The notes under the pieces are model-generated. The model was not told where the DNA came from. It did not search any database and saw nothing but the letters and a program-made list of their open reading frames with translations. A stretch of DNA of 64,000 bases from Waddliaceae bacterium (GTDB lineage: Bacteria > Chlamydiota > Chlamydiia > Chlamydiales > GCA-2709385): assembly GCA_002709385.1 (NCBI GenBank), contig PAQS01000019.1, positions 186,001 through 250,000 of the forward strand, written 5' to 3'. The position numbers were made by a program, and so were the translations under genes. Shown here in pieces: positions 9,836 to 63,656 of the stretch. Position 1 is the first letter of the stretch. Every line of letters starts with the position of its first letter.

Positions 9836-9866
9836 AGAGCCCTCTTTTAGAGGGCTCTTTTATTTT
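9836..9866 (+). terminator. Intrinsic terminator of the CT584 homologue
   Basis: AGAGCCCTCT (9836-9845) pairs perfectly with AGAGGGCTCT (9849-9858) around a 3-base loop and is followed by a T-rich tail. It lies between convergent genes and may also limit the minus-strand cyclase transcript. Confidence 0.9.
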
Positions 9867-18647: not shown

Positions 18648-18658
18648 AGCTTACCTTC

Positions 18659-33392: not shown

Positions 33393-33902
33393 GTGCCTAG
33401 ATACAGGAATTCGCTCAATATAGACAGCAAAAGCAATGATAATCAAGTTTCTCGGAGATCGTTTTTGGCGTTGCTTGGTGTCGCTGCCGGGCTGGGAGTT
33501 GCTCAGTTAGCTGGGGGTGCTTTATTAGGGTTTTTGTATCCTAACGCTCTTAAAACTCCACCTAGTGTATTTAGTTTAGGAAGACCGGAAGAGGTTTTGG
33601 CTAAAGAAGGAAAGCTCTTTATCCAAAAATATAAAGTATTTGTTGAAGTTAAGTCGGGAAAATTGCGCTGCCAAACAGCAGTTTGTACACATTTAGGTTG
33701 TACAGTTAATGCTGTTGAAACGGGTTATGCGTGTCCTTGTCATGGTTCAACTTATGATCTTGTGGGAGATAACGTAAGTGGTCCAGCTCCAAGGCCTCTT
33801 GTTTTTTTCCAGGCCTACAAAGGTGCATCTGGTGAGATTTTGGTAGATAAATCTAGACAAATTCATGAAGCATCAGAAGCTTGGTATGTTCCAGTTGCCT
33901 AA
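33393..33902 (+). CDS. Rieske iron-sulfur protein with twin-arginine signal
   Basis: A 169-residue subunit of a quinol:cytochrome c oxidoreductase, starting at GTG. The N-terminus carries a Tat signal [11 protein letters not shown] at residues 21-31 and a helix that would stay as a membrane anchor. The [2Fe-2S] ligands are in CTHLGC and CPCHGS (Cys/His pairs) near residues 107-127, with GPAPRPL after them. Cytochrome b follows 40 bases downstream. Tat export would be by the TatA/TatC pair at 15114-16258. Confidence 0.96.
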
Positions 33903-33942
33903 GGAGAAAGTGTGAAGTATTTATTTGGGAGAAGAACGACTC

Positions 33943-35268: not shown

Positions 35269-35285
35269 TTTAAGGAGATTGAGGG

Positions 35286-38200: not shown

Positions 38201-39353
38201 GGAACTTTTGAGTGGAATTAATACATGTAAAGATTTCTATGTAGATACAAAACCAAAAGTTTATATTGACTCATCAGAAAAAACGCTTTCTGTAGAAGAT
38301 ATTTTTGATGTTCAAGTCGGTGAATCAGGCGATAAGTCATACTTTGTAAAAGAAAGCTTTCATACAGCTGAAAATATAGAAGCTGGAAAAGGCTTGTTCC
38401 TTGTTAATTGTGCTCATTGTCACGGTAAAGAAGGTGCTGGAAACGGTGAAAGAGCGGTTGTCATGAATGATGCAAAACCACGGATGTTGTCGAATATGCC
38501 GTGGTTACGTACTAGAGATGACTTACGTTTACTTAGATCAATTAAGTATGGTGTTCCTGGAACTTCAATGACGCCTTGGGGTGATAAAACAAGCGCTTTG
38601 CAGAGAATGCAAATTGTAGTTTTTATTCGTTCTCTTACTGAAGAGAAGAAAATTAGAGATGAGTTAACAAGTAGTCTTTATGAAATTTTTGAAACGTCGG
38701 TCATTAAAATAGAGCTTGCTCGTGCAGAGTTGATGAAGCAGGCTAAGGAATTAGAGTCTGAATATAAAAAGACAAAAGATGTTCGACAGTCACTAGAGCT
38801 TGCTGCTAGTTTAGATGAAAATAAGTCAAAAAAAGCTGTTCAAGCTTATTACAAAGAGCTTGAGCAAAGCGCAAAACTTAATCGATTTCGTAGAGTTGAT
38901 CAATTGCTTAAGCAGTTGATCGAAGAAGTGAAGGTTGAGCAACAGGTTTATGAAATTTTGGGCCAGTCTTTAATTTTGAAAACTTTGAAAGCAGAGCCTG
39001 TTGGAAAGTTTTTTGATTTATTAGAGGTAAACAAGGGTAGGTTTACTTCTAAAAAAGATCAAATTGAGTTTATTCTTCGTTCTGATTTTGACTCAGAAAT
39101 TTCTAGCCGAGTAGAGCACTTGCTTTCGTGGATTCGAAATAAGAAACAGCTTGCAGAGAAGCAGCAGGTTTTAGCCTCTGGGAAACTAAATTCACCGCAG
39201 AAGCGCGAAGAATTAGAAAATATAAATAACGAAGTGTTGTCCATGCAAAGTATGGAAGAAAAACTTTTGGTGAGTATGAGCCAAGCTAAAGCTAGCCGAG
39301 CCCGCCAGCGAGATTTGTTTCAAGCTTTTGAAGAGAATGCTGAAGACCTGTAG
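35286..39353 (+). CDS. Giant seven-haem c-type cytochrome, bc-cbb3 linking protein
   Basis: A 1355-residue protein with an N-terminal membrane helix (LILLTLVATALFGSFF, about 10-27), so it is anchored and faces the periplasm. Seven CxxCH haem sites are at residues 80-84, 204-208, 280-284, 496-500, 612-616, 836-840 and 1042-1046. Likely axial Met ligands lie in TMPNF, IMPVMPF, PMPPWG and MTPWG. Between and after them are long helical/coiled stretches, and the last ~190 residues are coiled coil. Position between cytochrome b and CcoN suggests it replaces both cytochrome c1 and the CcoP haem domains. I know no family of exactly this build. Confidence 0.85.
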   Translation: MRSDLYQWALILLTLVATALFGSFFIRELFPEYKVYQNAYLEMEEFRSTYTGDPVPVFKGGIQQIVLPRNDTHPEKIDRCVSCHVALKLEHFSPTKVAKDLNGSVLRDESGKPVLVPNENYVWGRLDAKVSELRDEAVNEQLKQNGKTGEVRSRLKEADRLEAMKSHDLGHEQVVDMTKVLAMHPLMGNEERPFELHSMEEYGCVSCHSGNGRGLVTDRAHGPVFDGTYHEAHMGPHPDFTEPDHENDPSFARAFNHKPGHRLLFQTTPLLVGPLMQAKCVQCHQGAKEELESVGQSVELITQRKERHLDLIKEGIESDYLLLSSTLNLVQSLQDKGFDATVELMRKQLQDYTILPEERDQISTRLSFLRNAQQDYKKNEIEQAVSENLLDKALFVVGNKQVLDALLAEARKEELTPLKTKAILNEISNDLLSSGSLAAKLNSLDQNQESLSRIQQAHRPFTEISQDYNVMKPLKSDAEYISSFERGKSLFFSNACYACHRINNLSKGGVGPELTEIGLYYPWYIKESIVWPQSNLKSSTMPNFRLDHEEIEDLMTFLMAQRNDGKSSAEFIQTVALRDWEAGKKLEYEREIHPTKVNDLETGMVVFATEGCASCHKLRGYESNVGFTAEMEGASEEALYSEKKWFTRLFPEGLLGSEIARIVEENRDEILERISVDVRKDTLLEKIEEQYPKTIESMYSNFKFAARAKNKYYNDKAKEASSSSEKENALVSLEQYKEALNRVFMTYIQEYGLGRDIAPRLHWSGVYRDSEWLIGHFRNPASHTAKSIMPVMPFDDSKFYALTHMLTVLGKKNRDETRKVWDRLGFYPEEAYIELCASCHGQHFHGNGPIAEWIYPVPKNLRNATFLRNLTREKAIESIVHGVRGGPMPPWGETHVGGSPVLTQNEIEQLVDWLYTSLPGGRVIEDESVDKWRYEPEDVLEDLKKERSTSPFSQKENRQSLNSSCEDEEVMKELLSGINTCKDFYVDTKPKVYIDSSEKTLSVEDIFDVQVGESGDKSYFVKESFHTAENIEAGKGLFLVNCAHCHGKEGAGNGERAVVMNDAKPRMLSNMPWLRTRDDLRLLRSIKYGVPGTSMTPWGDKTSALQRMQIVVFIRSLTEEKKIRDELTSSLYEIFETSVIKIELARAELMKQAKELESEYKKTKDVRQSLELAASLDENKSKKAVQAYYKELEQSAKLNRFRRVDQLLKQLIEEVKVEQQVYEILGQSLILKTLKAEPVGKFFDLLEVNKGRFTSKKDQIEFILRSDFDSEISSRVEHLLSWIRNKKQLAEKQQVLASGKLNSPQKREELENINNEVLSMQSMEEKLLVSMSQAKASRARQRDLFQAFEENAEDL

Positions 39354-39386
39354 GTAAAAGGGTTTACTATTTAGGGAATGATTTCT

Positions 39387-40808
39387 ATGACGGAATATAA
39401 CGATAAGCCAGTCAAGTGGATGCTATACCCTTCCATAATATTTATGGTTATAGGGATGCTTGTGGGGGTGTTTGCCTCTGTGAACGGGTTTATTTTGCCT
39501 GACTATTTTGCTGGAGAGTACATACACTTTGGCCGAATTCGTCCTGTACACGTAAGCCATGTGACACTTTTATGGTTGCTTGCTGCTGATATGGGATTGA
39601 TCTATTACATTGTACAAAGACTAACAGGTGTCCCATTGTGGAGCCATAAGCTCGCAATTGTTACTACTATTGGGTATTGGGGCTCTGTAACTTTAGGAAC
39701 TTATTCACTTCCTTTTGGTACAAATGCTGGTTGGGAATATGCTGAACTCCCTATGTTACTCGGTTTTTTGCCTATTAAATGGCTTGTAGAGGCTTCTTGG
39801 GGTTTGTTTGCTGTAAATATTTTTATGACAATAGCAAATAGAAAGTACAAAAAAATGTATGTTTCTCTTTGGTATACGATGGGAACGCTTCTTTGGACAA
39901 CTTTCGTTTATGCAATTGGTAATTTAATAATGGATCTTGTTCCTTATGGAATATCCAGGGTAAACGTGAACTTCTTTTATGTTCATAATTTGGTGGGTTT
40001 AACATTTACGCCTTTAGGGGTTGCGATCGCTTATTATTTTATTCCTAAAACAGCGAACACACCTTTATATAGCCACAAATTGTCTATGATTGGTTTTTGG
40101 TCGATTGCTTTTGTGTATGCTTGGATTGGTGCTCACCATATGATGCATGGACCGATTTCTCAGTGGCTTCAAACGGTAGCTGTTGTGTTTTCTGTTTGGC
40201 TTTGGATTCCTGTTTGGACTGTTGTGACAAATTTCTTTGCTACTATGAAAGGTCAATGGGGACAGTACGCAACAAGTGCTCCCGTTCGATTTTTGATGAT
40301 GGGGACTGTTTTTTATTTACTTGTTTGTCTTCAGGGTCCGTTGCAAGCTTTAAGAAACGTAAACGAAATTACTTCGAAAACAGACTGGATCATTGGGCAC
40401 GCCCATATGGCACTTTATGGAACATTTACTTTCTTTGCTATTGGTGGAATTTATCATGCTATTCCTCAAATGGTAAGAAAACCTCTTTGGTCACAGGCCC
40501 TTGCTGATTGGCATTTTACCTTAAGTTTAGTTGGGGGAATGGTCTTTTTTGTTTCTTTGTGGGTTGGTGGATTTTTACAAGGTCTAACTTGGGCAAACTG
40601 GGTCAATGGATCAAGTTATGCTGAATTCCATAATAACCTTAGTCAAATGTCTTTCTTGCAAACAGTAAGTGATATGTGGGTTTGGTGGGCTTTAAGAAGC
40701 TTTGGAGGGGCCTTGATTGCTGCTGGAGGTGTTTTGTTTGCAATTAATATGTTCAATACAGTTGTCCTTAAAGGAAACGAAGAGATGCAAAAAGGGGCTG
40801 AGGCATGA
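39387..40808 (+). CDS. ccoN: cbb3-type cytochrome c oxidase subunit I (CcoN)
   Basis: The 473-residue catalytic haem-copper subunit with about 12 membrane helices. Ligand histidines are in RIRPVHVSHV, HHMMHGPISQ (copper-B pair) and HAHMALYGTF, all as in CcoN, together with a downstream GGIYHAIPQM. Reduces O2 at low tension and pumps protons. I took ATG 39387, nine bases after AGGGA; the ATG at 39378 is too close to that site. It is fused in order with ccoO by an ATGA-type overlap. Confidence 0.96.
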   Translation: MTEYNDKPVKWMLYPSIIFMVIGMLVGVFASVNGFILPDYFAGEYIHFGRIRPVHVSHVTLLWLLAADMGLIYYIVQRLTGVPLWSHKLAIVTTIGYWGSVTLGTYSLPFGTNAGWEYAELPMLLGFLPIKWLVEASWGLFAVNIFMTIANRKYKKMYVSLWYTMGTLLWTTFVYAIGNLIMDLVPYGISRVNVNFFYVHNLVGLTFTPLGVAIAYYFIPKTANTPLYSHKLSMIGFWSIAFVYAWIGAHHMMHGPISQWLQTVAVVFSVWLWIPVWTVVTNFFATMKGQWGQYATSAPVRFLMMGTVFYLLVCLQGPLQALRNVNEITSKTDWIIGHAHMALYGTFTFFAIGGIYHAIPQMVRKPLWSQALADWHFTLSLVGGMVFFVSLWVGGFLQGLTWANWVNGSSYAEFHNNLSQMSFLQTVSDMWVWWALRSFGGALIAAGGVLFAINMFNTVVLKGNEEMQKGAEA

Positions 40809-42076
40809 AAGAGTCACACGAAGGGTTCATGCATAAATTAGATAAATCGGCTGTGTTGACAGTGATTGGAATTCTACTTCTTTTTTCTTCTGCTGTTGGA
40901 GTAACACTGATTGCTCCTAGTTATGTTGATCCAAGTTGGACCGAGGTTGCTAGTCCTTATCAAAGGCAGATGTATGAAGTAGCGGATCCTAATTTATATG
41001 TAAGTACTGCTGCGACTGGTGGTGATGAATTACAGTTAGCTTATCATATTAAAGATGGTTATACGCTTCTAGCGTTTGCTGAAAGTGAAACTGTTCGAAT
41101 TATTGCTCCACCCGAGTTAGAAAAGTATGTAACTCGACATGGAGAATCTCGTTTAAAACTCTCTTCTAAATTGATGCTTTTACGTGAAGCTAACGCTGAG
41201 GGAGATAGAGGGAGACAGGCTACAGCTCTTCAAGAAAAACTACAATCACAGTGGCGTTCTAGTCATTCTCAAAGCGCTGCAAAAGAACTGCGCATGCCTC
41301 GTTTTGATATTTTAGAGTTGTATGAGCCTGAAGCTAAAGAGGCTTTTGCCCTAGCTGAAACAGACGGAATTCTTGAAAATTGGGTTGATAGCGAATTTGT
41401 TATTCTAGATGAAGAGGTAAAACAGCGTTATCACGAAGATCCCGGTGTTCTTTATGTGAGCAATCCTAAAGAGTATCGAATTGCACCATTTCGTTTCGGC
41501 AAATCTTCTGGGTTTCAGTATGATCCAAACGGTCGTTCAATTGCCAGTTTAGATGAGTTAAAAAGCCCTGAGCTGGGATTTATGAGCCGAGAGGAGTTAA
41601 TACAGCTTGGAGAAGATATTTACCGCATAGAGGGTTGTTGGTATTGTCACACAGATCAAACAAGAACTCTTGTTCAGGATACTATTCTTAATGGTTCTGA
41701 GACAAATGCAGCTCCACCATCTTCTGCGAATGAATATGTTTATCAACGCGTAACGTTTCCTGGAACGAGACGGATTGGTCCTGATATTTCTCGAGTGGGA
41801 ATTAAGCGCCCAAACCGCGATTGGCATAAAAGTCACTTTTGGTCACCAAAGACAGCTAGCGCTGGTACAATTATGCCTTCGTTTCGACACTTTTTTGATG
41901 ACGATCCTCGAGGAACAAGTAAAAGCCCTGTTGGCATTCCAAACTATAAGTTTGAGGCTATTTTCCAGTATCTTATGACAAAAGGAACAAGAATCACAGC
42001 ACCAACTCAAGCTTGGTGGCAAGGTCGCGATCCTGTACAGACTACAAAAATTATTGAAGGGCAGAAGAAGGTATGA
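40805..42076 (+). CDS. ccoO: cbb3-type oxidase monohaem subunit CcoO, extended
   Basis: An inner-membrane anchored cytochrome c. An N-terminal helix (about residues 18-35, VLTVIGILLLFSSAVGVTLIA) is followed by the haem site CWYCH at residues 278-282 and the distal Met in TIMPSFRHFF, typical of CcoO. At 423 residues it is about twice the usual length. The extra ~180 residues lie between the helix and the haem domain (about 60-240), polar and Glu/Arg-rich, without further CxxCH. It overlaps ccoN upstream and ccoQ-like downstream by four bases each. Confidence 0.9.
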   Translation: MKESHEGFMHKLDKSAVLTVIGILLLFSSAVGVTLIAPSYVDPSWTEVASPYQRQMYEVADPNLYVSTAATGGDELQLAYHIKDGYTLLAFAESETVRIIAPPELEKYVTRHGESRLKLSSKLMLLREANAEGDRGRQATALQEKLQSQWRSSHSQSAAKELRMPRFDILELYEPEAKEAFALAETDGILENWVDSEFVILDEEVKQRYHEDPGVLYVSNPKEYRIAPFRFGKSSGFQYDPNGRSIASLDELKSPELGFMSREELIQLGEDIYRIEGCWYCHTDQTRTLVQDTILNGSETNAAPPSSANEYVYQRVTFPGTRRIGPDISRVGIKRPNRDWHKSHFWSPKTASAGTIMPSFRHFFDDDPRGTSKSPVGIPNYKFEAIFQYLMTKGTRITAPTQAWWQGRDPVQTTKIIEGQKKV

Positions 42077-51467: not shown

Positions 51468-53123
51468 ATGCTTGTTCGAGGCATATCCTATGCGCTAAAC
51501 AGCAATTACCAGACATCGCGGACGAATTTAGAAGTGTCTATGCGTAGGCTGTCATCTGGTGATAAGTTTGCAAAAACAGGGGTTGAGTTAGGTGGAGAAC
51601 TTTCTGTTTCAGAAAGGTTCAGGCATCGTATTCGTTCAGCTGAAGCTTCTATCAATAGCGTTCAAGCTGGTATGTCTTTTTTGCAAAATGCTAGTGAAAA
51701 CATTGATACAGTCTATCAGATTTTAAATCGTATGCAGGAAATTGCGGCGGCAACAACTGATCCGATGATTACTGCTGATGATCGTGATGTTTTTAATGAA
51801 GAGTTTCAGTTGCTCAAAGCTGAAATCCCAGAGATTTCACGACAGGCTCAATTTTTTGGGAAACAAACGGTAGGAAGAGATACGATTGTTTCCTATGATG
51901 CGAATACAAAAAAATTACGTTTTTGGCAGCCAACAGGTGATGATCCTCAAGAGATTAGTAGAAAATTCGATTCGGATGCTACAGATGTAGAGCAGTCTAC
52001 GATTGGTTTTGATCCATCCGAAGATTTTAGTATGAGTCGAGATGGGAAAAGTTTGTTCTTTCTTGGGAATGAACCTGGAGATGGAGCCGGGGTTCTCCGT
52101 TTGAAGCGTTATGATATTGATACGCAAATGGTGACAACAAGTTCCGACTTGTACGCAACAGGTGATAAGTTATTTGTTCAGGAAGATGGACAATTATATG
52201 TGAACGGCAGTGGGACTCTTTATGATATTGATGAAGGGGGGTTAAGTCGAACTGCAACAGCTATTACTGACATGACAGCAGATACTGAGTTTACCATCTA
52301 TAACGATGCAGTTAAATACTATCGTAGTAGTGACAACCGAATTGTCAGTTATGATTTGAATACAGCAACAACGACGCAACTTACAGCTCCAATTACTTTT
52401 GCATCAGGAGGTGTCGATCATTCTTTTTCAGGATCGGGACGGTTTATTGCTGACGAAAGTGTTGCGGGTACTATTCGTGTGATTGATACCAGCACAGGTA
52501 ATACAGCTACTTATAATGTAGGTGCAGGAACAGCTCTTAACAATTTAAAATTCAATGAAGATGGTGATCGCATTTACTTTATTGATCAGGATGGAGCTTC
52601 TGTTCATTACATTAATGTTGGCGTTGATAGAGATGATAATATTTCTCTTACTGCAGGAGCTAAAGTTATTCAGGGAACAAATTCAAGTTCCTTTAATGGT
52701 TTAGATCTTGGAGGAAGCAATTATGGATCATCTGTAAGTTTTGTACTAAGTCAGGATAGTGTATCCGTTCTTAGTTATGAAGCGGCTGATTTGAGTTTGT
52801 ATGCTTTGGGGCTTTCTGATACGAGAGTCGATACAATTGCTAATGCAGAGACAGCTCTCAGTGATTTAAAAGAGGCTTTAAATAGAACGAATGCTGAAAG
52901 AGCAAAAATTTCAGCAATGGCAAGTCGTTTTGAGCATGTCATGAATAGTCACCGAAACTATATTGCCGATTTAACAAACGCTGAGTCTCAGATACGCGAT
53001 GTCGATTTAGCTAAAGAGACAGGATATTTTAGTGCAATGCAGGTGCAGAACCAGAGTGCAACAGCAATGTTAGCTCAGTTTAACAATTTATCAAAAAATG
53101 TAATGGTTCTATTGAATAGTTAG
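51468..53123 (+). CDS. Divergent flagellin with propeller-like insert
   Basis: A 551-residue flagellin-family protein. Residues 1-135 are the D0/D1 helices (NSNYQTSRTNLEVSMRRLSSG, then FLQNASENIDTVYQILNRMQEIA), and about 455-551 are the matching C-terminal helices (AESQIRDVDLAKETGYFSAMQVQNQ). The middle ~300 residues repeat short strands with SRDGKSLFFLG, NEDGDRIYFIDQ and GSGRFIADE turns, as in TolB/WD-like beta-propellers. N- and C-termini are more divergent than in the two flagellins at 59591-63482. The next gene follows nine bases later, so the two form an operon. No classical sigma-28 promoter was found upstream. Confidence 0.85.
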   Translation: MLVRGISYALNSNYQTSRTNLEVSMRRLSSGDKFAKTGVELGGELSVSERFRHRIRSAEASINSVQAGMSFLQNASENIDTVYQILNRMQEIAAATTDPMITADDRDVFNEEFQLLKAEIPEISRQAQFFGKQTVGRDTIVSYDANTKKLRFWQPTGDDPQEISRKFDSDATDVEQSTIGFDPSEDFSMSRDGKSLFFLGNEPGDGAGVLRLKRYDIDTQMVTTSSDLYATGDKLFVQEDGQLYVNGSGTLYDIDEGGLSRTATAITDMTADTEFTIYNDAVKYYRSSDNRIVSYDLNTATTTQLTAPITFASGGVDHSFSGSGRFIADESVAGTIRVIDTSTGNTATYNVGAGTALNNLKFNEDGDRIYFIDQDGASVHYINVGVDRDDNISLTAGAKVIQGTNSSSFNGLDLGGSNYGSSVSFVLSQDSVSVLSYEAADLSLYALGLSDTRVDTIANAETALSDLKEALNRTNAERAKISAMASRFEHVMNSHRNYIADLTNAESQIRDVDLAKETGYFSAMQVQNQSATAMLAQFNNLSKNVMVLLNS

Positions 53124-53132
53124 GAGCATCAA

Positions 53133-53690
53133 ATGGTACAGCCAGAAGAGAAAAAGCAAGAACAATCAGATATCCATTACAATCAAGCATTAAGACAAGC
53201 TTTAGGTAAACTCAGTTCTCATTCTCAAGATACACTGAAGAAAAAATATGGTTTAAGTGAAGAATTCAAAATGGAAGCTCCAAGTGAAGAGAGTGCTCTT
53301 TCTATGTGTGAAAAAGCTATGGATTCTCTTTCTACTCAGTATGTTTCCTATTTAGATGCGTTTTTAAACACTGAAGATCCTCAGGCATCTTTAACAGCCC
53401 TCAATGATGCAGAAGGGGTTTGGAAGGAAGAATCATCAATTATTTCAGCTTTTGATCAAGAGGGTGGAGAGAAAGAGTTTCTCTTGAGAATGCGTGGGCA
53501 ATTTTATCAAGTAATGGAAAATAAACTTGAAGAAGCATCGCGTCGTTGTCACAAACGAGCGACCGATGAAAATATTGCTCTCTGTATTGGTATACTGGCT
53601 ATGATGGATCAGGTTTTACATGAATTTGGCCATGGATTAAGCGATCCAGAGCGTAAGCGTGTAAGAGATTTAGCTGCAAAATTTAAATAA
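53133..53690 (+). CDS. Hypothetical helical protein co-transcribed with flagellin
   Basis: A 185-residue, mostly helical, acidic-to-neutral protein with no signal peptide. EEASRRCHKRATDENIALCIGILAMMDQVLHEFG near residues 135-168 is its most ordered segment. It starts nine bases after the flagellin stop and ends at a terminator. Its placement suggests a flagellin-specific chaperone or regulator, but it does not look like FliS, FlaF or FliW. Function unknown. Confidence 0.7.
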   Translation: MVQPEEKKQEQSDIHYNQALRQALGKLSSHSQDTLKKKYGLSEEFKMEAPSEESALSMCEKAMDSLSTQYVSYLDAFLNTEDPQASLTALNDAEGVWKEESSIISAFDQEGGEKEFLLRMRGQFYQVMENKLEEASRRCHKRATDENIALCIGILAMMDQVLHEFGHGLSDPERKRVRDLAAKFK

Positions 53691-53695
53691 AAAAG

Positions 53696-53717
53696 CACAC
53701 CCTTTATAGAGGGTGTG
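53696..53717. terminator. Bidirectional terminator between flagellin operon and hemB
   Basis: CACACCCT (53696-53703) pairs with AGGGTGTG (53710-53717). The minus-strand side runs into CTTTTTTATTT, so it should end hemB transcripts well; the plus side is weaker. Confidence 0.85.
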
Positions 53718-53728
53718 TTCAATACTTT

Positions 53729-54757
53729 TTATTGGTTTTTTAAGTACTCACAAGCTTCAATAGCACTGTATGTAAAAATAAAGTCTGCCCCTGCTCGCTT
53801 AAAAGACATAAGGCTTTCCATCATGACTTCTTCTCCATTGATCCAGCCTTTTTCGGCAGCAGCTTTAATCATGGCATATTCACCGCTTACTTGATAAACA
53901 CCTAAAGGAAGCGCTGTTTGTGCGCGAATTTTTGCAAGGATATCGAGATATGCAATTCCTGGTTTTACTAGAAGGAGATCGGCACCTTCTGCTTCATCTA
54001 GCTCTGCTTCAATAAGAGCTTCTCGGCTATTTGCAGGATTTGCTTGGTAAGTTTTTTTATCTCCAAATTTTGGTGCTGAGTTCAATGCATCTCGGAATGG
54101 TCCATAAAAAGCAGAAGCATACTTCATTGTGTAGGATAGAATACTAACGTCGAAAAAGCCGTTAAGATCTAGAGCTTGTCGAATTGCTTCAATTCTTCCA
54201 TCCATCATATCACTTGGAGCAACAACGTCTACACCAGCTTCAGCAAGGCTAACACTAAAATCTGCAAGTATAGATACTGATTCATCGTTAAGAATGATTC
54301 CTTTTTCATTTACTACGCCATCGTGTCCTGTACTTGTAAATGGATCTAGGGCTACATCAGCCATTACGCATAAATGAGGGAATTCTTTTTTTATTTCCCT
54401 TACAGCTCGTTGTTGTAATCCGTTAGGGTTTAAAGATTCAGAACCTGAAATGTCTTTTAGTTCTTCTGGAACAAGAGAAAAAAGCTCGATTGCAGGAATA
54501 CCATAGTAACAAGCTCTTTCTATCGTTTTTAACATTTTGTCTAGTGATTGCCTAAAAACTCCGGGCATACTCAAGACTGGCTCTTCTATGCCGTTTCCTT
54601 CCATAGCAAAAAGAGGAAGAACGAAGTCGCTGGGGTGTAGACGGTTTTCTTGAACGAGAGAGCGTATTGCCGCACTTTTTCTGTTTCTTCGTGGTCTTGT
54701 TAGTAAATTGAGAGATTTTGTTGTAGTTTTAGGAGAAAGAATGGTGTTGCTGGTCAT
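53729..54757 (-). CDS. hemB: Delta-aminolevulinic acid dehydratase (porphobilinogen synthase)
   Basis: A 342-residue cytoplasmic enzyme that joins two aminolevulinates to porphobilinogen in haem synthesis. Motifs are RRNRKSAAIRSLVQE and MPGVFRQS near the N-terminus, MADVALDPFTSTGHDG (metal/active-site region), APSDMMDGR, and the Schiff-base lysine motifs YTMKYAS and LLVKPG with VSGEYAMIKAA. I took ATG 54757 with CCAAGG upstream; an in-frame start at 54808 adds an unusual 17 residues. Haem supply fits the many cytochromes encoded nearby. Confidence 0.97.
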   Translation of the reverse strand: MTSNTILSPKTTTKSLNLLTRPRRNRKSAAIRSLVQENRLHPSDFVLPLFAMEGNGIEEPVLSMPGVFRQSLDKMLKTIERACYYGIPAIELFSLVPEELKDISGSESLNPNGLQQRAVREIKKEFPHLCVMADVALDPFTSTGHDGVVNEKGIILNDESVSILADFSVSLAEAGVDVVAPSDMMDGRIEAIRQALDLNGFFDVSILSYTMKYASAFYGPFRDALNSAPKFGDKKTYQANPANSREALIEAELDEAEGADLLLVKPGIAYLDILAKIRAQTALPLGVYQVSGEYAMIKAAAEKGWINGEEVMMESLMSFKRAGADFIFTYSAIEACEYLKNQ

Positions 54758-54910
54758 AGGAAAACCTTGGGTAATATATAGAGACAATTGTCGCTTTGTC
54801 TGCACCAAATTGTCAACAATCAGCCTTCAGCTTTTTTATCTATTTATTCCTTGAAAGAGTAGAGGCTGCTACAATTACATATCTGTATTCAATAAGAACA
54901 AGGTAAGTTT

Positions 54911-55915
54911 TTGAAGACGATTGGGGATTTGGGTGAATTTGCATTTATTCGCTCCTATTTAAAAAAACAATTTTTTCCAAGAAAACCTAATGTACTCCAT
55001 GGAATAGGAGACGACTGTGCTGTTGTTCGAATGAGCGACCAGTGTTATTCGCTATGGTCAGCTGATATTCTTTGTGAAGGGATTCATTTTGATTTAAAGA
55101 CAACATCTGCAGAGGATTTGGGGTATAAGTGCATTGCAGTGAATGTGAGTGATATTGCTTCCATGGGAGGGAAAGCTGAGGGGGTTCTTATTTCAGCATC
55201 CATCCCTCCAAAAACAGAACTTGAATGGTTAAAGAATTTTACTCGAGGTGTTCAAGAGGCTCTTTTAGACTACGATATTTGTGTACTTGGTGGAGATACA
55301 AGTAAATCCCGAAAAGATTTGTTGTTCTCTATTTCTATACAAGGACAGGTGTCTCCAGAGATGCTTAAATTACGTAGTACAGCAAAAGAGGGAGATGTTA
55401 TCTGTGTGACAGGTCTTTTAGGAGCAAGTTCTTTAGGAATGGAGTTACTGCAAAAAAAACTTTTGGAAAGAACGGAAGGTGAAAACGAGTGTATACAGGC
55501 TCATGTTCGACCAAGAGCACATTTAAGAGAAGGGCAATTTTTGGCCTCTTATTCGGCTCTTACAGCAATGATTGATCTTTCAGATGGGATAGGTGGAGAT
55601 CTGTATAAAATAGCAGATGAGTCCGATGTAGGGTTTGTTGTAGATGTAAATAAACTCCCACTCCCTTCTTATTTAGAAAATCTTCGTACTCTCGGTAAAA
55701 AAGATTATTTATCTTATGCATTATCTGGAGGAGAAGATTACTGCCTTTTATGTACTATTGGGAGTGATCAATATGAAGAGATAAACAAATCTTTTAAGAG
55801 AGAGTTTTCACGAGACCTTACTTGCGTGGGAGTGGTGACAGGGAAAGAAGATAAGGTATTTTTACATAATGGTGAACCCATTGAGTGGCTCAATGGGTAT
55901 GACCATTTTAACTAA
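54911..55915 (+). CDS. thiL: Thiamine-monophosphate kinase
   Basis: A 334-residue ATP-dependent enzyme that converts thiamine monophosphate to the diphosphate cofactor. GIGDDCAVVR near residue 37 is the nucleotide/Mg region, followed by SDIASMGG, VLGGDTSKS, VTGLLGAS and DLSDGIGGDLYKI, the typical AIRS/PurM-like order. It begins at TTG 54911 with AAGGT upstream. No other thiamine gene is near, which suggests uptake or salvage of thiamine monophosphate. Confidence 0.95.
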   Translation: MKTIGDLGEFAFIRSYLKKQFFPRKPNVLHGIGDDCAVVRMSDQCYSLWSADILCEGIHFDLKTTSAEDLGYKCIAVNVSDIASMGGKAEGVLISASIPPKTELEWLKNFTRGVQEALLDYDICVLGGDTSKSRKDLLFSISIQGQVSPEMLKLRSTAKEGDVICVTGLLGASSLGMELLQKKLLERTEGENECIQAHVRPRAHLREGQFLASYSALTAMIDLSDGIGGDLYKIADESDVGFVVDVNKLPLPSYLENLRTLGKKDYLSYALSGGEDYCLLCTIGSDQYEEINKSFKREFSRDLTCVGVVTGKEDKVFLHNGEPIEWLNGYDHFN

Positions 55916-55921
55916 GGTATT

Positions 55922-57043
55922 TTATTGAATACTTGAGAGTTTTTTGAAGTTTTCTAAAGCGATAAAACCTCGTTCACGTTCTTTTTCTTCCATAAATCCA
56001 TTACAAATAAATTCAAAAAAGCAGTCACAAAATATAGAAGGTAAAACACTAAAACCTGAGAGGTTGATTTGAATAGGCTTGTCTTGTTTGATTAAAAATT
56101 GATGAGGTCCCAAATCAAGCTGTGCATTTGTTGTTCCTAAACCAGCTTTTGTGACCATGGTGTTACGAAAATGAAGTAAAAATTTCCATACTTCTCCTGT
56201 GTCTTTGCTTATTTGTTCGTTTCTACTCAGTTGTGCCAAGAGCATTGGGTAAGTTACTTTCTCTTCTTTTATAGTCTCTGATTGTGCTCTTTTGCTAAGT
56301 AAAGCGTGGAATTCTACGAATTGTTTAGGAAGAGGAGTATACATTTCCATGATGGGATTGAATTTCTTGAGCAATGTCTTAAAGGGCCCTGGTTTTTTAG
56401 GAGGAGAAGGGTGTAAATGTTCGAAACATGCACGGGTATATAGCTCTATCCAGGCGCCAAGATCAGCTAAAAGCTCTTTAGAAAAATTACAAATAAATAA
56501 CTCACTTTGACGAGCTTCTTTTTCTGTTATTGTTTTTCCAATGTAAACCTGGTTTACAATGTGTTCACAGTGGAGAATAAAGTGCGTTAGCATGCTTGTT
56601 GCTTGAGCACCAGTTTTGATAAATGGACTAGAACCTTGTAAGGAACTGGGAAGAAATGAGGCTTGTCTAAGAGATGAATAGCTTTCGTATACTAAGCAAC
56701 GTACGATTAAGAGGTTAATTTGGCAGGCCGAATAAAGGATATTGAGAGAAATTTTTGTTCGATAACCCCTGCTTAGATCAATATTTTTGAGTTGTTTGTG
56801 ACATCTTTGGTTGATCTCTTTTGCAAGTGTCATATTTGTTTGTGTTGATGCATTATGTATGGTGTGGTCTAGTTGAGAGATAAAAAGTTCGATTTCTTCT
56901 TTATATTGAAGAGCTTCGGAGGCGAGGTGCTTGTCTTCATTTTCATCTAGATTTTTTTGTTTTTCTATAGACCTGCTGCTTACTATTTTGCGGTCTTTAG
57001 AAACAGAAACGTTTGTATTTTCAGGAGAATTTTTAGGCACCAT
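55922..57043 (-). CDS. Hypothetical protein
   Basis: A 373-residue soluble protein I do not recognise. The N-terminal ~65 residues are polar and Asn/Lys/Glu-rich, the rest mainly helical with repeated HC and aromatic positions; no signal peptide or clear membrane helix. ATG 57043 is chosen because GAGG lies upstream; an earlier ATG at 57055 is weaker. It converges with thiL and diverges from the gene at 57157. A lineage-specific effector or regulator is possible but unsupported. Confidence 0.7.
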   Translation of the reverse strand: MVPKNSPENTNVSVSKDRKIVSSRSIEKQKNLDENEDKHLASEALQYKEEIELFISQLDHTIHNASTQTNMTLAKEINQRCHKQLKNIDLSRGYRTKISLNILYSACQINLLIVRCLVYESYSSLRQASFLPSSLQGSSPFIKTGAQATSMLTHFILHCEHIVNQVYIGKTITEKEARQSELFICNFSKELLADLGAWIELYTRACFEHLHPSPPKKPGPFKTLLKKFNPIMEMYTPLPKQFVEFHALLSKRAQSETIKEEKVTYPMLLAQLSRNEQISKDTGEVWKFLLHFRNTMVTKAGLGTTNAQLDLGPHQFLIKQDKPIQINLSGFSVLPSIFCDCFFEFICNGFMEEKERERGFIALENFKKLSSIQ

Positions 57044-57156
57044 ATATATCCTCATCTATAGCTAGTATTTTTTTTATTTATACAATAGTTTGCTAAAACG
57101 AAGAACACAACTTAAGCAATAAAATTTTTGTGCTTAATTAGAAACAGGGGTTGCTA

Positions 57157-58479
57157 GTGAAATACTTAAAAAAGGCATGGTCAAATCTTTGGGAAAAACG
57201 CTTTTTACTTCGCACAGGCTTAGCCTTTTTTGTGATTTCTGTGAGTATATTGGCTCTTCGTGTGGGAATAAGTGGTCCTTTTCAGCGAGGTCTTCCTCAA
57301 CATCTAGTATCTAATGAAAAAAAATATCTGCGTGCCATAGATCTACTGAATTTTGAGAGAATGGATGTTTTGGCTATGTGTGTGTATTTAGATCATGAAT
57401 CTAGAGGCATCGCAGATATATGGGCACGTGAGCTTTTAGAAGAAGTCAGTCATTGTGTGTGTAATGGTGATCGTTTATCTCTGTATCAAGAGCTTGCTAA
57501 AATGAAAAAGGTTAAAGAGGGGCGAGGAGAAGTAGAAATTGTTGAGAATATGGTTCATTTGGCGTTGATTTTAGATAGAAATCCTAATACTGAAGTAAAG
57601 CTCCAAAAGGATTTAATGGTTTCAGAAGCGAGTTTAGTACAATTGGAAAAGTTGGGTTTATCTGAAAAATATATAGATTATCTAACTTTGGAATATAGTC
57701 GTCGAAAAGAAGAAGCTTCGATTATTTGTTTTTTTCCATGTATTAAGAATAAGGCAAAAGATGTTTTACTTAACTTAGATCAACGCTCTATGATTGTAAG
57801 AGTTAAGGATTTTACATTAGAAAACAGAGGTTCTAAGCAACTTTTGGAGCATCTTTATAGTGTTTTGCCTACAGAGCAAGCTGATCAGAAATTTATAAAA
57901 AAAACTGAAGATAAGCTAAAAAACCATCATGAGCCTTATTATGTTGCGTTAGTTGAATGGAAGTCTTCTAAGCAAAAGAAAAAATTTTTGAGTTATTTAA
58001 AGCGGCAGGGAATATCTACTGGAGATTATTTTATTAATAAAGATGTAGATTCTGTTATCGATCTAGCGCATCTTTTTTTTAATGAAAATAGTCTTCGTCA
58101 CTTGAATTATGCTCCAGAAACTTTACCTTCTCAGCTTTTAACATCCTTTGATTTGTTGCGATATCGTATGAATAATGGTCGGGTAAGTTATGAGGAATTT
58201 TGTCTTGATGGAGGCTTTATTTATGCTAGTTTTGGGTATGGTGATGAAATGCATGACCAGCGCATCCTTTATCCTCGACCTCTTCAAGAAATGCAAATTG
58301 GTGAGTTTAAACAATTATCTGACCAGAGAGGTTTAGAGATTCTTCATCATCCTACTAAACATTATTATTACCATGGGTTCAAGTTTGCAACATTGTCTAC
58401 TTTATTGGAAAGAAGCCGGCTTGGAGACACAAAAAAAGTTGCTGAATTAAGTCTTGAAGATCTTTTTCAGGTTTTGTAG
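57157..58479 (+). CDS. Hypothetical membrane-anchored protein
   Basis: A 440-residue protein starting at GTG 57157 with AGGGG upstream. One membrane helix near residues 19-37 (LLRTGLAFFVISVSILALRV) follows a basic Lys-rich start, and the remaining ~400 residues are a helical, charged soluble part on the far side of the membrane. No family recognised. Its 3' end overlaps convergent mutY by 33 bases. Confidence 0.72.
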   Translation: MKYLKKAWSNLWEKRFLLRTGLAFFVISVSILALRVGISGPFQRGLPQHLVSNEKKYLRAIDLLNFERMDVLAMCVYLDHESRGIADIWARELLEEVSHCVCNGDRLSLYQELAKMKKVKEGRGEVEIVENMVHLALILDRNPNTEVKLQKDLMVSEASLVQLEKLGLSEKYIDYLTLEYSRRKEEASIICFFPCIKNKAKDVLLNLDQRSMIVRVKDFTLENRGSKQLLEHLYSVLPTEQADQKFIKKTEDKLKNHHEPYYVALVEWKSSKQKKKFLSYLKRQGISTGDYFINKDVDSVIDLAHLFFNENSLRHLNYAPETLPSQLLTSFDLLRYRMNNGRVSYEEFCLDGGFIYASFGYGDEMHDQRILYPRPLQEMQIGEFKQLSDQRGLEILHHPTKHYYYHGFKFATLSTLLERSRLGDTKKVAELSLEDLFQVL

Positions 58480-59487
58480 GACTTTTTTGTGTCCAGATGA
58501 AAAAGGTAAGAGGTCTAGTTCTTCTAATGTTTTCCATTGGTAGGAAGGGACTTCTTTTTGTTCCTTTGTTTGAAGGAGAAAAGGAAGTATTTGGACTCGA
58601 AAGCGGGTAAAAGTATGATTTACTTTAGGAAGTTTTTTTCTATATATGAGGGGGAGAGCAGATTTTTTTTCTAAATGAGTTAATATTTTATTTATTTCTT
58701 CTTCTGGACTGTTAAGATCTATGTAAAAAAATTCGTAGAGACCTGACATGATTTCACCTTCATTTACCTTTCTAACAAGAAAATGTTGGTTATTTTCAAT
58801 AAGAGCTACAGCTCTAAATCGTTTTTCGTACTGAATTTTTTTTTCTTTAATTGGGAGTATTTTTTGTTGTCCGTTTAAGTTTGTGTAGCAATCTCTTTTT
58901 AACGGACAAGATGAACATAGAGCTTTTTTTCCACAAACTTGCGCTCCTAGTTCAATAAAAGCTTCCATGATTTCCCAAGGGGCATTTTCTGGTAAAATCT
59001 TAAAAACTTCGTTTTCGATTAGTTTGCGGGTTTTTGTTTTCCCTATATCTTCTTTAATCCCCTTATAGCGAGAGATAACTCGTAATACATTTCCATCTAC
59101 AGCAGCAGCTTTTTGTTTGAAGGCAAAGCTACGGATGGCACCAATTGTGTAGGGACCAATTCCTTTTATTTTGTTCAATTCATCACTAGAAGAAGGGATT
59201 TGTCCAGAAAATTGTTGAATAATTGTTTGGGCGCCGGCATGCAGGTTTCTTGCACGAGAGTAATATCCAAGCCCTTCCCATGTTTTTATAACAGACTCGA
59301 TAGGTGCTTCAGCTAAAGATTGAATGTTAGGAAATTTTTTCATCCATTCGTGGAAATAAGGGATGACTACTTCAGCTCTTGTTTGCTGTAGCATAATTTC
59401 TGATACCCAAACAGAATAGGGAGTGGGGTTATCACGCCAAGGGAGGGAGCGTTTATTTGTTTGAAACCAAGAGCGAAGTCTTTCCAT
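58447..59487 (-). CDS. mutY: A/G-specific adenine DNA glycosylase
   Basis: A 346-residue base-excision-repair enzyme that removes A from A:8-oxoG pairs. The helix-hairpin-helix lies in LNKIKGIGPYTIGAIRSFAF with VDGNVLRVISR (catalytic Asp). The [4Fe-4S] ligands are in CGKKALCSSCPLKRDC. A NUDIX-like C-terminal domain (from about 230) recognises 8-oxoG. The true start is the ATG at 59487 (MERLRSWF); the open frame upstream to 59715 is a shadow over the flagellin end and its terminator. Confidence 0.95.
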   Translation of the reverse strand: MERLRSWFQTNKRSLPWRDNPTPYSVWVSEIMLQQTRAEVVIPYFHEWMKKFPNIQSLAEAPIESVIKTWEGLGYYSRARNLHAGAQTIIQQFSGQIPSSSDELNKIKGIGPYTIGAIRSFAFKQKAAAVDGNVLRVISRYKGIKEDIGKTKTRKLIENEVFKILPENAPWEIMEAFIELGAQVCGKKALCSSCPLKRDCYTNLNGQQKILPIKEKKIQYEKRFRAVALIENNQHFLVRKVNEGEIMSGLYEFFYIDLNSPEEEINKILTHLEKKSALPLIYRKKLPKVNHTFTRFRVQILPFLLQTKEQKEVPSYQWKTLEELDLLPFSSGHKKVLQNLKKIFKT

Positions 59488-59536
59488 AATCAATAAAAAG
59501 TCATAATAAATAGGAACTATTATTATGATGATAAAA

Positions 59537-59570
59537 CAAAAAGGCCAGCAAATTTTGCTGGCCTTTTGTG
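59537..59570 (-). terminator. Terminator of flagellin 2
   Basis: AAAAGGCCAGCA (59539-59550) pairs with TGCTGGCCTTTT (59556-59567). On the minus strand the stem is followed by a run of T, directly after the flagellin stop at 59591 and before mutY. Confidence 0.88.
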
Positions 59571-59590
59571 TATAATATTTTCTAACTCTT

Positions 59591-61420
59591 TTATGGAAGA
59601 AGTCGTAAAATATTTTGAGCGTTTGTGTTGTTTTGCCCAAGCATAGAGATACTTGTTTGAGAAAGTATTTGTGCTCTTGTGAGCTCTGTTGTTTCCTTAG
59701 CAATATCAACATCACGTAGTCGGCTTTCAGCTTGAGCTAGGTTATCTCTGAACCCAGTGTTTGCTGAGTGAGTAAAGCTTAGACGGCTCACTTGAGATCC
59801 TATGATAGCGCGTTGATTTGCAACCATATCAATAGCTCCAGAAATGGACTTGATTGCTGCTTGAGCGTTATCTTCATTTAATACATCAAGAGAGCTAATC
59901 CCTAACTTTACAACACGTACATCTGCTAATTCGAAATCAACATCCATACCTGCATCAGCACCAACTTGGAATTCATAGCGACTTGCTGGGGTTCCACCAC
60001 CAACAGAAAGCCCCATGTTTCTAGCAGCCATACCAGAATTATACGCACCTAGGTGACCTGCATTATCATTGCGAATCACTTCTGTATCGTACAGTTCAGG
60101 TTTACCGTCTGAAGCCAAACGAATGCTTGCTCGTTTGATTGCGTTTTCATCGCTTGTATTACCTGTATCGGTCCAAAATAAATTATTGTTTCCGTCAAAA
60201 CCTAGAGCTGCAACCGAGTTGGTTCGGCTTCCCATAGACTGTGTGATATATTCACCAGAAGGTATGTGAATAATTTTAACATTACCCACAGTGCCATTTT
60301 CATCTTCAAAAGCCATGTACTGACCATCTTGAGAAATGGCATAGGTTTCGCCTTTATTAAGACCAAAAGTGGTGCTAATATCGTTTAAAAGAATTTCTTT
60401 GCTTGTTGTGTCGTAAATACTCTGCTTTACTAAGCGGTGTGGAGCAGTACCTGTACTACGCTCTATGTAATAGATGTAGTCATCATGTACAGCAAAGTTA
60501 GAGAAGCTAGATGCTAAAGTAACACCACCGGCCCATTTATTTGAAGCGCCAGTACCACCATCATCTAATGTGAAGGCATCTACATCTAATAAACGAACTC
60601 TAAACTGTTTATCATCTGTAGTAGCTGCTGTAGAAGGTTCAGAAACCCACACGCGACCTTGGTTATCCATAACTAAACGAGCTTGGTTGGTAGCGGAAGT
60701 ACCTCCAGCTGAATCCATAGCTAGTGTTGTAAGTTGATTACTTTCTATATCCAGTTTCATCAGAGTTTTCTGTGCAGAAAGACTGTCTACACTTTTTTGA
60801 GCTACGTAGATCAGATTTTTTCCATCGTCAGTGAACATGAAGTCACCAACAGACCCATTTGCTGCCGAGCTCTCAAAAGCGTATTTAATGCCGTTTGCTG
60901 CAGCATTTCCATCGCGGAAATTGATGCCTACATCATGGATTTCACTACCATCAGCTTGTGAATAGGTAATTTTGTGATTTAGGTTATCGTATACAGCAAC
61001 AGCTGTTCTTCCATTCACTGATAGTTTGTTGTATTTACCAGCTTCAGATATACGAGCTACTTCATTTTTTAATTGTTGGAATTCCAAGTCGAGGTTTTTA
61101 CGATCCCCAGTGCTTTTTGAACCATCTGCTGAAGATACAGCAAGTTCACTCATTCTATCTAGAATGTTATGTACTTCTTGTAACCAACGGTCTGTTGATT
61201 GCATTAAGTTGATTGCGTTTTGAATGACACCGCTAGCAGCTTCTGAATTGCGGATTTGAGCTCTGAATCGCTCAGAAATACCTAGATCAGCAGGAGCATC
61301 TCCTGGGCTTGTCATTTTTTGTCCTGAAGAAAGACGACTCATAGCGTTTTGTAGGCGACTATTTTGATCACCATAGTTGCTAATGAACGTTTTATATGTT
61401 GCATTATTGGCAATGATCAT
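59591..61420 (-). CDS. Flagellin 2 with propeller-like insert
   Basis: A 609-residue flagellin. D0/D1 helices at residues 1-140 (NATYKTFISNYGDQNSRLQNAMSRLSSGQ, then INLMQSTDRWLQEVHNILDRMSELAVSSADGS) and at about 515-609 (MVANQRAIIGSQVSRL, AESRLRDVDIAKETTELTRAQILSQ) match classical flagellin. The middle ~360 residues carry repeated TDDGKNLIYVAQK, SQDGQYMAFED and GNNNLFWTDT strands like beta-propeller blades. It is a close tandem paralogue of flagellin 3. A TCCGATAC element lies about 90 bases upstream. Confidence 0.93.
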   Translation of the reverse strand: MIIANNATYKTFISNYGDQNSRLQNAMSRLSSGQKMTSPGDAPADLGISERFRAQIRNSEAASGVIQNAINLMQSTDRWLQEVHNILDRMSELAVSSADGSKSTGDRKNLDLEFQQLKNEVARISEAGKYNKLSVNGRTAVAVYDNLNHKITYSQADGSEIHDVGINFRDGNAAANGIKYAFESSAANGSVGDFMFTDDGKNLIYVAQKSVDSLSAQKTLMKLDIESNQLTTLAMDSAGGTSATNQARLVMDNQGRVWVSEPSTAATTDDKQFRVRLLDVDAFTLDDGGTGASNKWAGGVTLASSFSNFAVHDDYIYYIERSTGTAPHRLVKQSIYDTTSKEILLNDISTTFGLNKGETYAISQDGQYMAFEDENGTVGNVKIIHIPSGEYITQSMGSRTNSVAALGFDGNNNLFWTDTGNTSDENAIKRASIRLASDGKPELYDTEVIRNDNAGHLGAYNSGMAARNMGLSVGGGTPASRYEFQVGADAGMDVDFELADVRVVKLGISSLDVLNEDNAQAAIKSISGAIDMVANQRAIIGSQVSRLSFTHSANTGFRDNLAQAESRLRDVDIAKETTELTRAQILSQTSISMLGQNNTNAQNILRLLP

Positions 61421-61508
61421 GGCTTTTTTACCACTTGGTTAAAGTTAATCGATGTTTTGAAACTCTCACTTCTGCTGTCCGAACAGAATTGTGATCCTTT
61501 CAAAAGAG

Positions 61509-61516
61509 GTATCGGA
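61509..61516 (-). promoter_or_regulatory. Sigma-28-like -10 element upstream of flagellin 2
   Basis: The minus strand reads TCCGATAC, which matches 6 of 8 bases of GCCGATAA. The -35 side is poor. The same CCGATA core lies upstream of flagellin 3. Confidence 0.3.
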
Positions 61517-61565
61517 AAGAAAGAGTGAGTGGATTAGAAAAAAAATGAAAAAAAATAATAAAAAA

Positions 61566-61622
61566 AGCCCTCAAAAGTATCTGTGAGGGCTAAAATAAAA
61601 AGGACCAATACATTTGTATTGG
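61566..61622 (-). terminator. Tandem hairpins, terminator of flagellin 3
   Basis: In minus order the first hairpin is CCAATAC/GTATTGG (61605-61622), the second AGCCCTCA/TGAGGGCT (61566-61591). The second is followed by a long T-rich tract, so it is the likely terminator after the flagellin 3 stop at 61656. Confidence 0.85.
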
Positions 61623-61655
61623 CCCAGTGGTTTCGTGTTATTGTTATTGATAATT

Positions 61656-63482
61656 TTATTGCAAGAGTCTGAGAACGTTTTGCGCGCTACTATTTGCTTG
61701 TGTGAGCATAGATATGCTTACTTGTGATAGAACTTGCGCTTTCGTTAATTCGCTTGTTTCTTTTGCGATATCAACGTCTCGAATCCTGCTTTCAGCTTGT
61801 GATAGATTGTCTTTAAATCCTGTGTTTGCAGAGTGTGTAAATCCAAGTCTACTTACTTGTGAACCGATAACAGCTCTTTGGTTAGCTACCATGTCGATTG
61901 CACCGGCAATTTTTGTGATAGCGGCTTGTGCTGAGTCAATACTTAATACATCTTGATCACTGATTCCAAGACGAGTTAATCGTACATCTGCAAGCACAAA
62001 ATCTACGCTCATATCTTGGTCTGGACCTACTTGAAATTCATATCTTCCAGCAGGACTTCCACCGCCTACAGACAGACCCATATTTTTTGCTGCTTGGGTA
62101 CTATTATATGCTCCAAGATGACCAGCGTTTTCACTGCGCAATGTTTTGATATCAAAAACTTCAGGAACGTCTCCGTTTAGACGGATTTGAGCACGTTTTA
62201 ATGCATTTTCATCCGTTGTCCCTCCCGTATCAGTCCAATAAATACGGTTATTTGCATCAAAATCAAGGGCTGCGATAGAGTTTGCTGCTGTACCTAAAGG
62301 AACAGAAGTAACCTGTCCAGAAGAAATATGAACAACTTTTAATGTTCCTGCAGTTCCGTTTTCATCTTCAAAAGCTAAGTATTGACCATCTGAACTAATG
62401 GCGTAAGTTTCACCTTTATTTAGACCAAAGTTTACACTTAAGTCATCCATCAAGGTTTGCTTATTTGTTGTGTCGTTGATGTGTTGTTTTACCAAACGAT
62501 GTGGGCTTGTACCTGTACTGCGTTCGATGTAATAAATATAGTCATCATGAACAGCAAATTCAGAGAAGCTTGAAGCTGTGGTTACGCCACCGGACCAGTT
62601 GTTTGTTGCTCCAGTACCACCATCGTCTAAAGTGAATGAATCCATATCAATCATACGAACTCTAAACTGATTATTAGCTCCTCCTCCCGCTGTAGATGGC
62701 TCGGAAACCCAAATTCTTCCTTTGTTATCCATGACTAATCGAGGTTGTGATGTCGCAGATGTTCCACCAGCGGATTCCATAGCAAGTGTGGTGAGAGTAT
62801 CGCTTTCAATATCTAGTTTCATTAAGGTTTTTTGTGCAGATAAAGAACCGATACTTTTTTGTGCTACATAGATGAGGCTTTTTCCATCTTCACTGAATAG
62901 ATAGTCTCCAACAAATCCGTTGCTTGCAGAGCTTTCAAAAGCGTATTGGATACCATTTTTAGAAGCATTTCCATCCATGAAATTCTGATCGAGCATTGCT
63001 TTCTCAGAGCCATCTGCTTGGCTATAGACAATTCTATGCTTTAGATTGTCATAGACAGCGACTGCAGTTTGTGAATTCACGGATAAGCCGTTGTATTTTC
63101 CTGCTTCTGAAATTCGAGCAACTTCTGTTTTTAATTGTTGAAACTCAAGATCTAAGTTCTTTCGGTCACCAGAGCTTTTAGAACCATCTGCTGCAGATAC
63201 AGCAAGTTCACTCATTCTATTCAATATACTATGAGTTTCTTGTAGCCATCGGTCAGTAGACTGCATCAAGTTGATAGCGTTCTGAATAACGCCGCTAGCG
63301 GCTTCAGAGTTACGAATTTGAGCACGAAATCTTTCTGAGATACCTAAATCAGCTGGAGCTTCTCCAGGTGTAAGTAGACGCTGTCCTGATGAAAGACGAC
63401 TCATAGATGTTTGGAGTCGGCTGTTCTGTCCTGCATAGTTACTAACAAAAGTTTTATAAGTGGCGTTATTGGCGATCAACAT
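61656..63482 (-). CDS. Flagellin 3 with propeller-like insert
   Basis: A 608-residue flagellin, close to flagellin 2 over its whole length (same INLMQSTDRWLQE, SAQKTLMKLDIES, YIYYIERSTGT and SRIRDVDIAKETSEL landmarks). N- and C-terminal helices are best conserved, the middle strands less so. GGAGGAAAG precedes the ATG. Its promoter region, with a C tract, is described separately. Tandem order suggests duplication; the two may form one filament or alternate. Confidence 0.94.
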   Translation of the reverse strand: MLIANNATYKTFVSNYAGQNSRLQTSMSRLSSGQRLLTPGEAPADLGISERFRAQIRNSEAASGVIQNAINLMQSTDRWLQETHSILNRMSELAVSAADGSKSSGDRKNLDLEFQQLKTEVARISEAGKYNGLSVNSQTAVAVYDNLKHRIVYSQADGSEKAMLDQNFMDGNASKNGIQYAFESSASNGFVGDYLFSEDGKSLIYVAQKSIGSLSAQKTLMKLDIESDTLTTLAMESAGGTSATSQPRLVMDNKGRIWVSEPSTAGGGANNQFRVRMIDMDSFTLDDGGTGATNNWSGGVTTASSFSEFAVHDDYIYYIERSTGTSPHRLVKQHINDTTNKQTLMDDLSVNFGLNKGETYAISSDGQYLAFEDENGTAGTLKVVHISSGQVTSVPLGTAANSIAALDFDANNRIYWTDTGGTTDENALKRAQIRLNGDVPEVFDIKTLRSENAGHLGAYNSTQAAKNMGLSVGGGSPAGRYEFQVGPDQDMSVDFVLADVRLTRLGISDQDVLSIDSAQAAITKIAGAIDMVANQRAVIGSQVSRLGFTHSANTGFKDNLSQAESRIRDVDIAKETSELTKAQVLSQVSISMLTQANSSAQNVLRLLQ

Positions 63483-63628: not shown

Positions 63629-63656
63629 ATATCGGAATGGGGGGGGGGGAACTTAA
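63629..63656 (-). promoter_or_regulatory. Sigma-28-like promoter with C tract in the spacer (flagellin 3)
   Basis: The minus strand reads TTAAGTTC at 63656-63649 and TCCGATAT at 63636-63629, 12 bases apart; consensus is TAAAGTTT-N11-GCCGATAA. Six of eight bases match in each box. The 12-base spacer is ten C, then A and T. Confidence 0.5.
63639..63649. repeat. Homopolymeric G11/C11 tract
   Basis: Eleven consecutive G on the plus strand in otherwise AT-rich DNA. Such tracts in promoter spacers are known phase-variation switches through slipped-strand mispairing. Confidence 0.9.

Follow-up and report, generated by a model that had tools for sequence, protein, structure and literature searches.

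The DNA considered here is a 64-kb stretch (the window; positions 186001-250000 of contig C19, 38% GC) of the 3.15 Mb draft genome G000 of a Waddliaceae bacterium. It carries three long flagellin genes, A, B1 and B2, whose products we read, with a probability of about 0.7, as functional filament flagellins, from a flagellated chlamydia, that bear a six-bladed beta-propeller of the TolB/YWTD type as outer domain. Such a propeller would occupy the long variable region that separates the conserved helical ends of each protein. Here and in the neighbourhoods of related genomes, genes are named from their sequences.

Flagellin A (551 amino acids) lies at 51468..53123 on the plus strand, and B1 (609 amino acids; 59591..61420) and B2 (608 amino acids; 61656..63482) form a tandem pair on the minus strand with 75% identity. 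Between A and B1 we find unrelated housekeeping genes, among them HemB, ThiL and MutY. In all three proteins the helical ends exceed the curated Pfam cut-offs, with Flagellin_N and Flagellin_C E-values of 1.2e-14 and 1e-15 for A, 1.2e-23 and 3.3e-17 for B1, and 2.9e-22 and 4.8e-19 for B2, so that, judged by their ends, A, B1 and B2 are genuine bacterial flagellins. This agrees with an initial sequence-only reading of the window, according to which the three open reading frames keep the D0/D1 ends around some 300-360 residues of repeated short strands; the middle regions now measure 288, 346 and 345 residues in A, B1 and B2, and the turns quoted at that time were located in B1 (TDDGKNLIYV and SQDGQYMAF) and in A (NEDGDRIYF).

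The inserted domain and its predicted fold

The insert of B2 comprises residues 139-483 (62034..63068, minus strand) and is the one best covered by a structural model, as described below. The inserts of B1 (residues 139-484; 59969..61006, minus strand) and A (residues 138-425; 51879..52742, plus strand) were delimited by alignment to those of the other types, with a low-confidence model in the case of A. They enter the flagellin after the N-terminal D1 helices and before the D1 beta-hairpin QVGPDQDMSVDF, which in B2 follows the propeller directly (61965..62033, minus strand) and aligns to the same hairpin of solved flagellins. The outer domains of the best-known enterobacterial flagellins sit after this hairpin. 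The insertion site is nevertheless not unique to chlamydial flagellins, because the solved filament flagellin 9au6, of 793 amino acids, carries a large insert at the equivalent place, although no sequence match links that insert with the chlamydial one.

A fourth long flagellin of the same genome, C, is found outside the window on contig C23 (locus L002), and two other chlamydial genomes, G043 and G061, each carry a single gene of every type (A, B and C). The ten inserts of these three genomes are mutually homologous (A against C, 4e-19; B2 against C, 1e-13), and their tree resolves the three types as distinct clades, fully or almost fully supported, each genome appearing once per clade except for the two B copies of G000. 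Since every clade spans the three genomes, which belong to three families of one order, the paralogues are older than the split of those families. The median end branch is 0.87 for the insert and 0.48 for the D0/D1 part. Short flagellins of about 270 amino acids lacking the insert are also present.

AlphaFold2 was run on residues 136-506 of B2 with an alignment of five sequences, and gave a model with a mean predicted local distance difference test score (pLDDT) of 69.5 and a predicted template modelling score (pTM) of 0.70. Its strands fall into five consecutive groups of four, with remaining strands at both ends of the insert. All on the minus strand, the blades are blade 1 (residues 194-238; 62769..62903), blade 2 (249-286; 62625..62738), blade 3 (309-345; 62448..62558), blade 4 (360-395; 62298..62405) and blade 5 (403-451; 62130..62276), the last containing the YWTD-like motif IYWTDT. 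A sixth, composite blade would combine three N-terminal strands (140-145, 150-155 and 161-163, spanning 140-163; 62994..63065) with one C-terminal strand drawn from 456-460/471-473 (spanning 456-473; 62064..62117), a pairing that is suggested by strand order and count. Such a velcro closure is the usual way in which propeller rings close, and the two ends of the insert would meet in the closing blade because the D1 helices of the N-terminal end precede the insert and the D1 hairpin follows it.

A Foldseek search of the B2 model against the PDB placed TolB first (2e-10, TM-scores 0.51/0.46) among 654 matches at E<=0.001; those listed were propellers spanned end to end, and the nidogen propeller 1npe reached a TM-score of 0.62 by target length. 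In the full-length model of A (pLDDT 45.7) the strands again group in fours, and the matches listed for it are likewise propellers, which counts as weak support, given how poor that model is. Independent of any model, a profile of the ten inserts matched 157 different PDB sequences at E<=1. Propellers make up nearly all of the best 60 listed, with LRP6 (3e-7) at the top, then Tako8, a designed propeller (1.5e-6), the WD40 domain of PkwA (2e-6), WDR61 (1e-5) and RACK1 (2e-5). Individual inserts match Pfam PD40, WD40, SGL and THOC3 weakly and below cut-off, PD40 in three of the ten. Moreover, blade-to-blade profile scores exceed those of shuffled blades for some pairs, such as the blade 3 profile against blade 1 of C (23.9 bits, where the top 1% of shuffled blades reach 4.6 bits).

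Flagellar context, promoters and distribution

Genes for a complete flagellar machinery accompany the long flagellins: FlgB and FlgC within the window, and FlgF to FlgL, FliW, FlhA, FlhB, FlhF, FliA, FliS, FliD and MotA. FliS and MotA occur in all three flagellated genomes, and FliD is above cut-off in two of them. In G043 the B gene is directly preceded by FlgI, an FlgJ-like gene, an FlgN-like gene, FlgK, FlgL and FliW, and in G000 the C gene comes after FlhB, FlhA and FlhF, with FliA some 3 kb away. The FlgC- and FlgB-like genes of the window (18174-19033) adjoin a uracil-DNA glycosylase-like gene, away from the main flagellar clusters.

For seven of the ten flagellin genes a graded score recovered sigma-28-like sequences that a search for the exact consensus had missed; they match at 12 or more of 16 positions and lie 60-174 nt upstream. 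As high a score is reached by 2% of random 250-nt stretches, and three genes, two in the window (A and B1) and one in G061 (B), do not stand out from this background. The candidate promoter of B2 (63629..63656, minus strand) matches 12 of 16 positions. Its spacer contains a run of eleven C (63639-63649; G11 on the plus strand), the longest G/C run of the window, and judged by its sequence this run is a possible slippage switch.

Directly downstream of A, and conserved beside it in all three genomes, there is a companion gene of 185 codons (53133..53690, plus strand) whose products share about 31% identity across genomes (E 1e-13 to 1e-23); the protein has nothing above the Pfam cut-offs and no NCBIfam match. 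It is possibly a dedicated chaperone, while the idea that it replaces FliS is weakened by the presence of a normal FliS. A gene of about 340 codons is divergent from flagellin C (positions 8557-9594 of locus L055 on contig C23 in G000), is also conserved beside it in the three genomes, and has HxK repeats that resemble the phospholipase D superfamily.

Flagella in marine chlamydiae were reported by Collingro et al. 2017, as cited in PMC5826181 and PMC8242063, and what those chlamydiae share with the present genomes is the presence of flagellar genes. Flagellins above the Flagellin_N cut-off are found in three of 234 Chlamydiota genomes (G000, G043 and G061). As the mixed A/B/C alignment has no conserved stretch, contig searches used a B-only alignment, which finds B-like genes only. 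Across 84,980 species this pattern recovered two insert-bearing relatives, Simkania negevensis isolate AH-315-G07 and Chlamydiales bacterium isolate bin.18, and none outside Chlamydiota; the same kind of search found no B-like insert in viral contigs. No match over the full length of the insert appeared in about 100 other genomes outside Chlamydiota, nor at 1e-7 in the 85 genomes of one other WD40-rich phylum, and among 72 plasmid records none covered 80% of the query, the matches being ordinary flagellin ends only. These searches were sampled or limited to the pattern, and for this reason absence of the insert beyond Chlamydiota is not proven.

Weighing alternative folds and roles

Several observations count against the propeller fold. 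Confidence in the B2 model is moderate overall, because the alignment was shallow at five sequences, and lowest in the C-terminal strands that would close the ring, where pLDDT is mostly below 50; confidence in the A model is low. The PDB matches of the ten-insert profile cluster at profile positions of about 180-260, and the four B inserts, when profiled on their own, matched nothing in the PDB at E<=0.1, so that the propeller signal stems from pooling the three insert types. Plain pairwise similarity between blades is weak (mean z 0.9), as is usual in old propellers. These points leave room for another all-beta fold, such as a solenoid or an immunoglobulin-like domain, in which the matches would reflect generic SxDGxxL turns; against it speak the grouping of strands in consecutive fours and the Foldseek matches listed for B2 and, separately, for A, and we regard it as very improbable. 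Altogether, the insert is very probably a beta-propeller, and that it has exactly six blades, five complete and one composite, is a good probability, though a lesser one. The sequence-only reading had proposed a TolB- or WD-like propeller and named a fold other than a closed ring of four-strand blades as evidence against it; the model bears out the blades and has as its best match the very family named there, with low confidence in the closing strands, and blade repeats are detectable by profile for some pairs and weak by pairwise comparison.

With a propeller as outer domain, the flagellin architecture suggests that A, B and C would be exported and would polymerise through D0/D1, each subunit placing one propeller on the filament exterior, at about 11 per turn. 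The propellers would then form the outer wall and lateral contacts of the filament, and their divergent surface would be free to bind a ligand or a host or protist surface. Surface display in the filament is highly likely. As to function, the invariant columns of the insert are Gly, Phe, Tyr, Ser and Asp of turn type, with no invariant Arg or Glu, and an enzyme role appears unlikely because there is no Arg triad, no invariant Glu and no Pfam sialidase match; a role in binding or contact is thus the likely one on present sequence grounds.

Contact may be of two kinds. The propellers could be purely structural, neighbours packing side by side as an outer sheath and so stiffening the filament without any ligand, a possibility of real weight that nonetheless stays short of even odds. 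The retention of three propeller paralogues in all three flagellated chlamydiae is expected of a mixed filament, and insert branches longer than those of D0/D1 are expected of a surface with few fixed contacts, but a structural role does not itself explain why the propeller was kept in every paralogue. Alternatively, they could bind a eukaryotic or particle ligand and aid host finding or attachment, and the sequence-only reading had likewise suggested that glycans or a host partner might be bound. Chlamydiae are host-associated, the matched propellers of LRP6 and the nidogen YWTD domain are protein-binding modules, and surface switching could arise from the three diverged paralogues and from the run of eleven C in the spacer of the B2 promoter; phase variation is, however, conjectural, the run being known from one assembly, and we hold this reading, like the existence of a specific host ligand, as doubtful. 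More speculative still is a host- or surface-recognition coat in which propellers of three diverged types are arrayed in order along the flagellum, at least one type being switched by C-run slippage in its sigma-28 promoter, which we consider unlikely. A propeller with enzyme activity, resembling a sialidase, a lactonase or SGL and comparable to flagellinolysin, would have precedents in the sialidase and protease domains listed for flagellins in a 2017 census (PMC5595980), in the weak SGL match of one insert (7.6e-4, below cut-off) and in a G043 flagellin with an M10 protease domain. Nevertheless, the turn-type nature of the invariant columns and the missing sialidase features make it very unlikely.

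Relation to known systems and significance

TolB is a periplasmic protein of the Tol-Pal system. Its C-terminal propeller (PD40 repeats; 2hqs, 1c5k) resembles the inserts as their best Foldseek match, in its six blades and in its xxDGxxLxF turns, whereas identity is about 13% and TolB is not part of a flagellin; membership of the TolB family is rejected, PD40 being below cut-off and TolB_N absent. The likeness to YWTD propellers such as those of LRP6 and nidogen lies in the top profile match, the IYWTDT of B and the superposition on 1npe, but these are animal extracellular receptor or matrix proteins with EGF modules, while the inserts have a single YWTD-like motif and no EGF.

Sialidase domains are six-bladed propellers. 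In the census by Eckhard et al. 2017, 26,587 flagellins contained 61 types of variable-region domains, proteases included, with sialidase found 10 times (PMC5595980, Table 1), so that a propeller-class domain in a flagellin had already been counted there. The earlier statement that no flagellin of this kind had been described was consequently too strong. Listed there as a count of 10, the sialidase-domain flagellins are like ours in that their variable region holds a domain of the propeller class, and they are set apart by family features: the Arg and Asp-box features are absent from the inserts. Membership of the sialidase family (GH33), whose marks are the Arg triad and Asp boxes of the form S-x-D-x-G-x-T-W, is rejected for lack of an invariant Arg and of a Pfam sialidase match. 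Flagellinolysin is likewise a filament flagellin with a foreign folded domain inserted into its variable region (PMC5595980), but this is an HExxH gluzincin protease, whereas the chlamydial insert is a predicted and apparently non-catalytic propeller. The NF033876 matches of B1 and B2 are far below cut-off and involve the C-terminal flagellin part only, and flagellinolysin membership is rejected. In G043 (locus L018, contig C103) the flagellin encoded by a 508-codon frame bears a protease domain of the M10 matrixin type (HEIGHALGLGH; Pfam Peptidase_M10, 1e-20), a metzincin and not a gluzincin as in flagellinolysin. A literature search on flagellins and beta-propellers returned no description, and flagellins with an inserted TolB/YWTD-like, apparently non-enzymatic, predicted six-bladed propeller, in three paralogues and three families, have no prior description that we found.

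Other features of the window concern the wider physiology of the bacterium. At 33393-42076 there is a respiratory cluster, unusual for a chlamydia, with a Rieske protein, cytochrome b, a 1355-residue protein with multiple haem motifs and subunits of a cbb3-type oxidase. An overlapping gene pair at 9860-13221 encodes a histidine kinase and a response regulator whose sequence includes an adenylate/guanylate cyclase-like domain, and the GreA of the window is of the long form (721 residues) typical of chlamydiae.

Flagellin variable regions were already known to take up foreign domains, and the propeller would add a binding-type fold rarely reported in them, so that each filament may present, in their thousands, ordered modules for binding or packing. 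As a natural example of a filament predicted to display about 11 closed ring-shaped modules per turn, it would be useful for the study of outer-domain evolution and filament display, and it may bear on how the rare motile chlamydiae interact with their surroundings.

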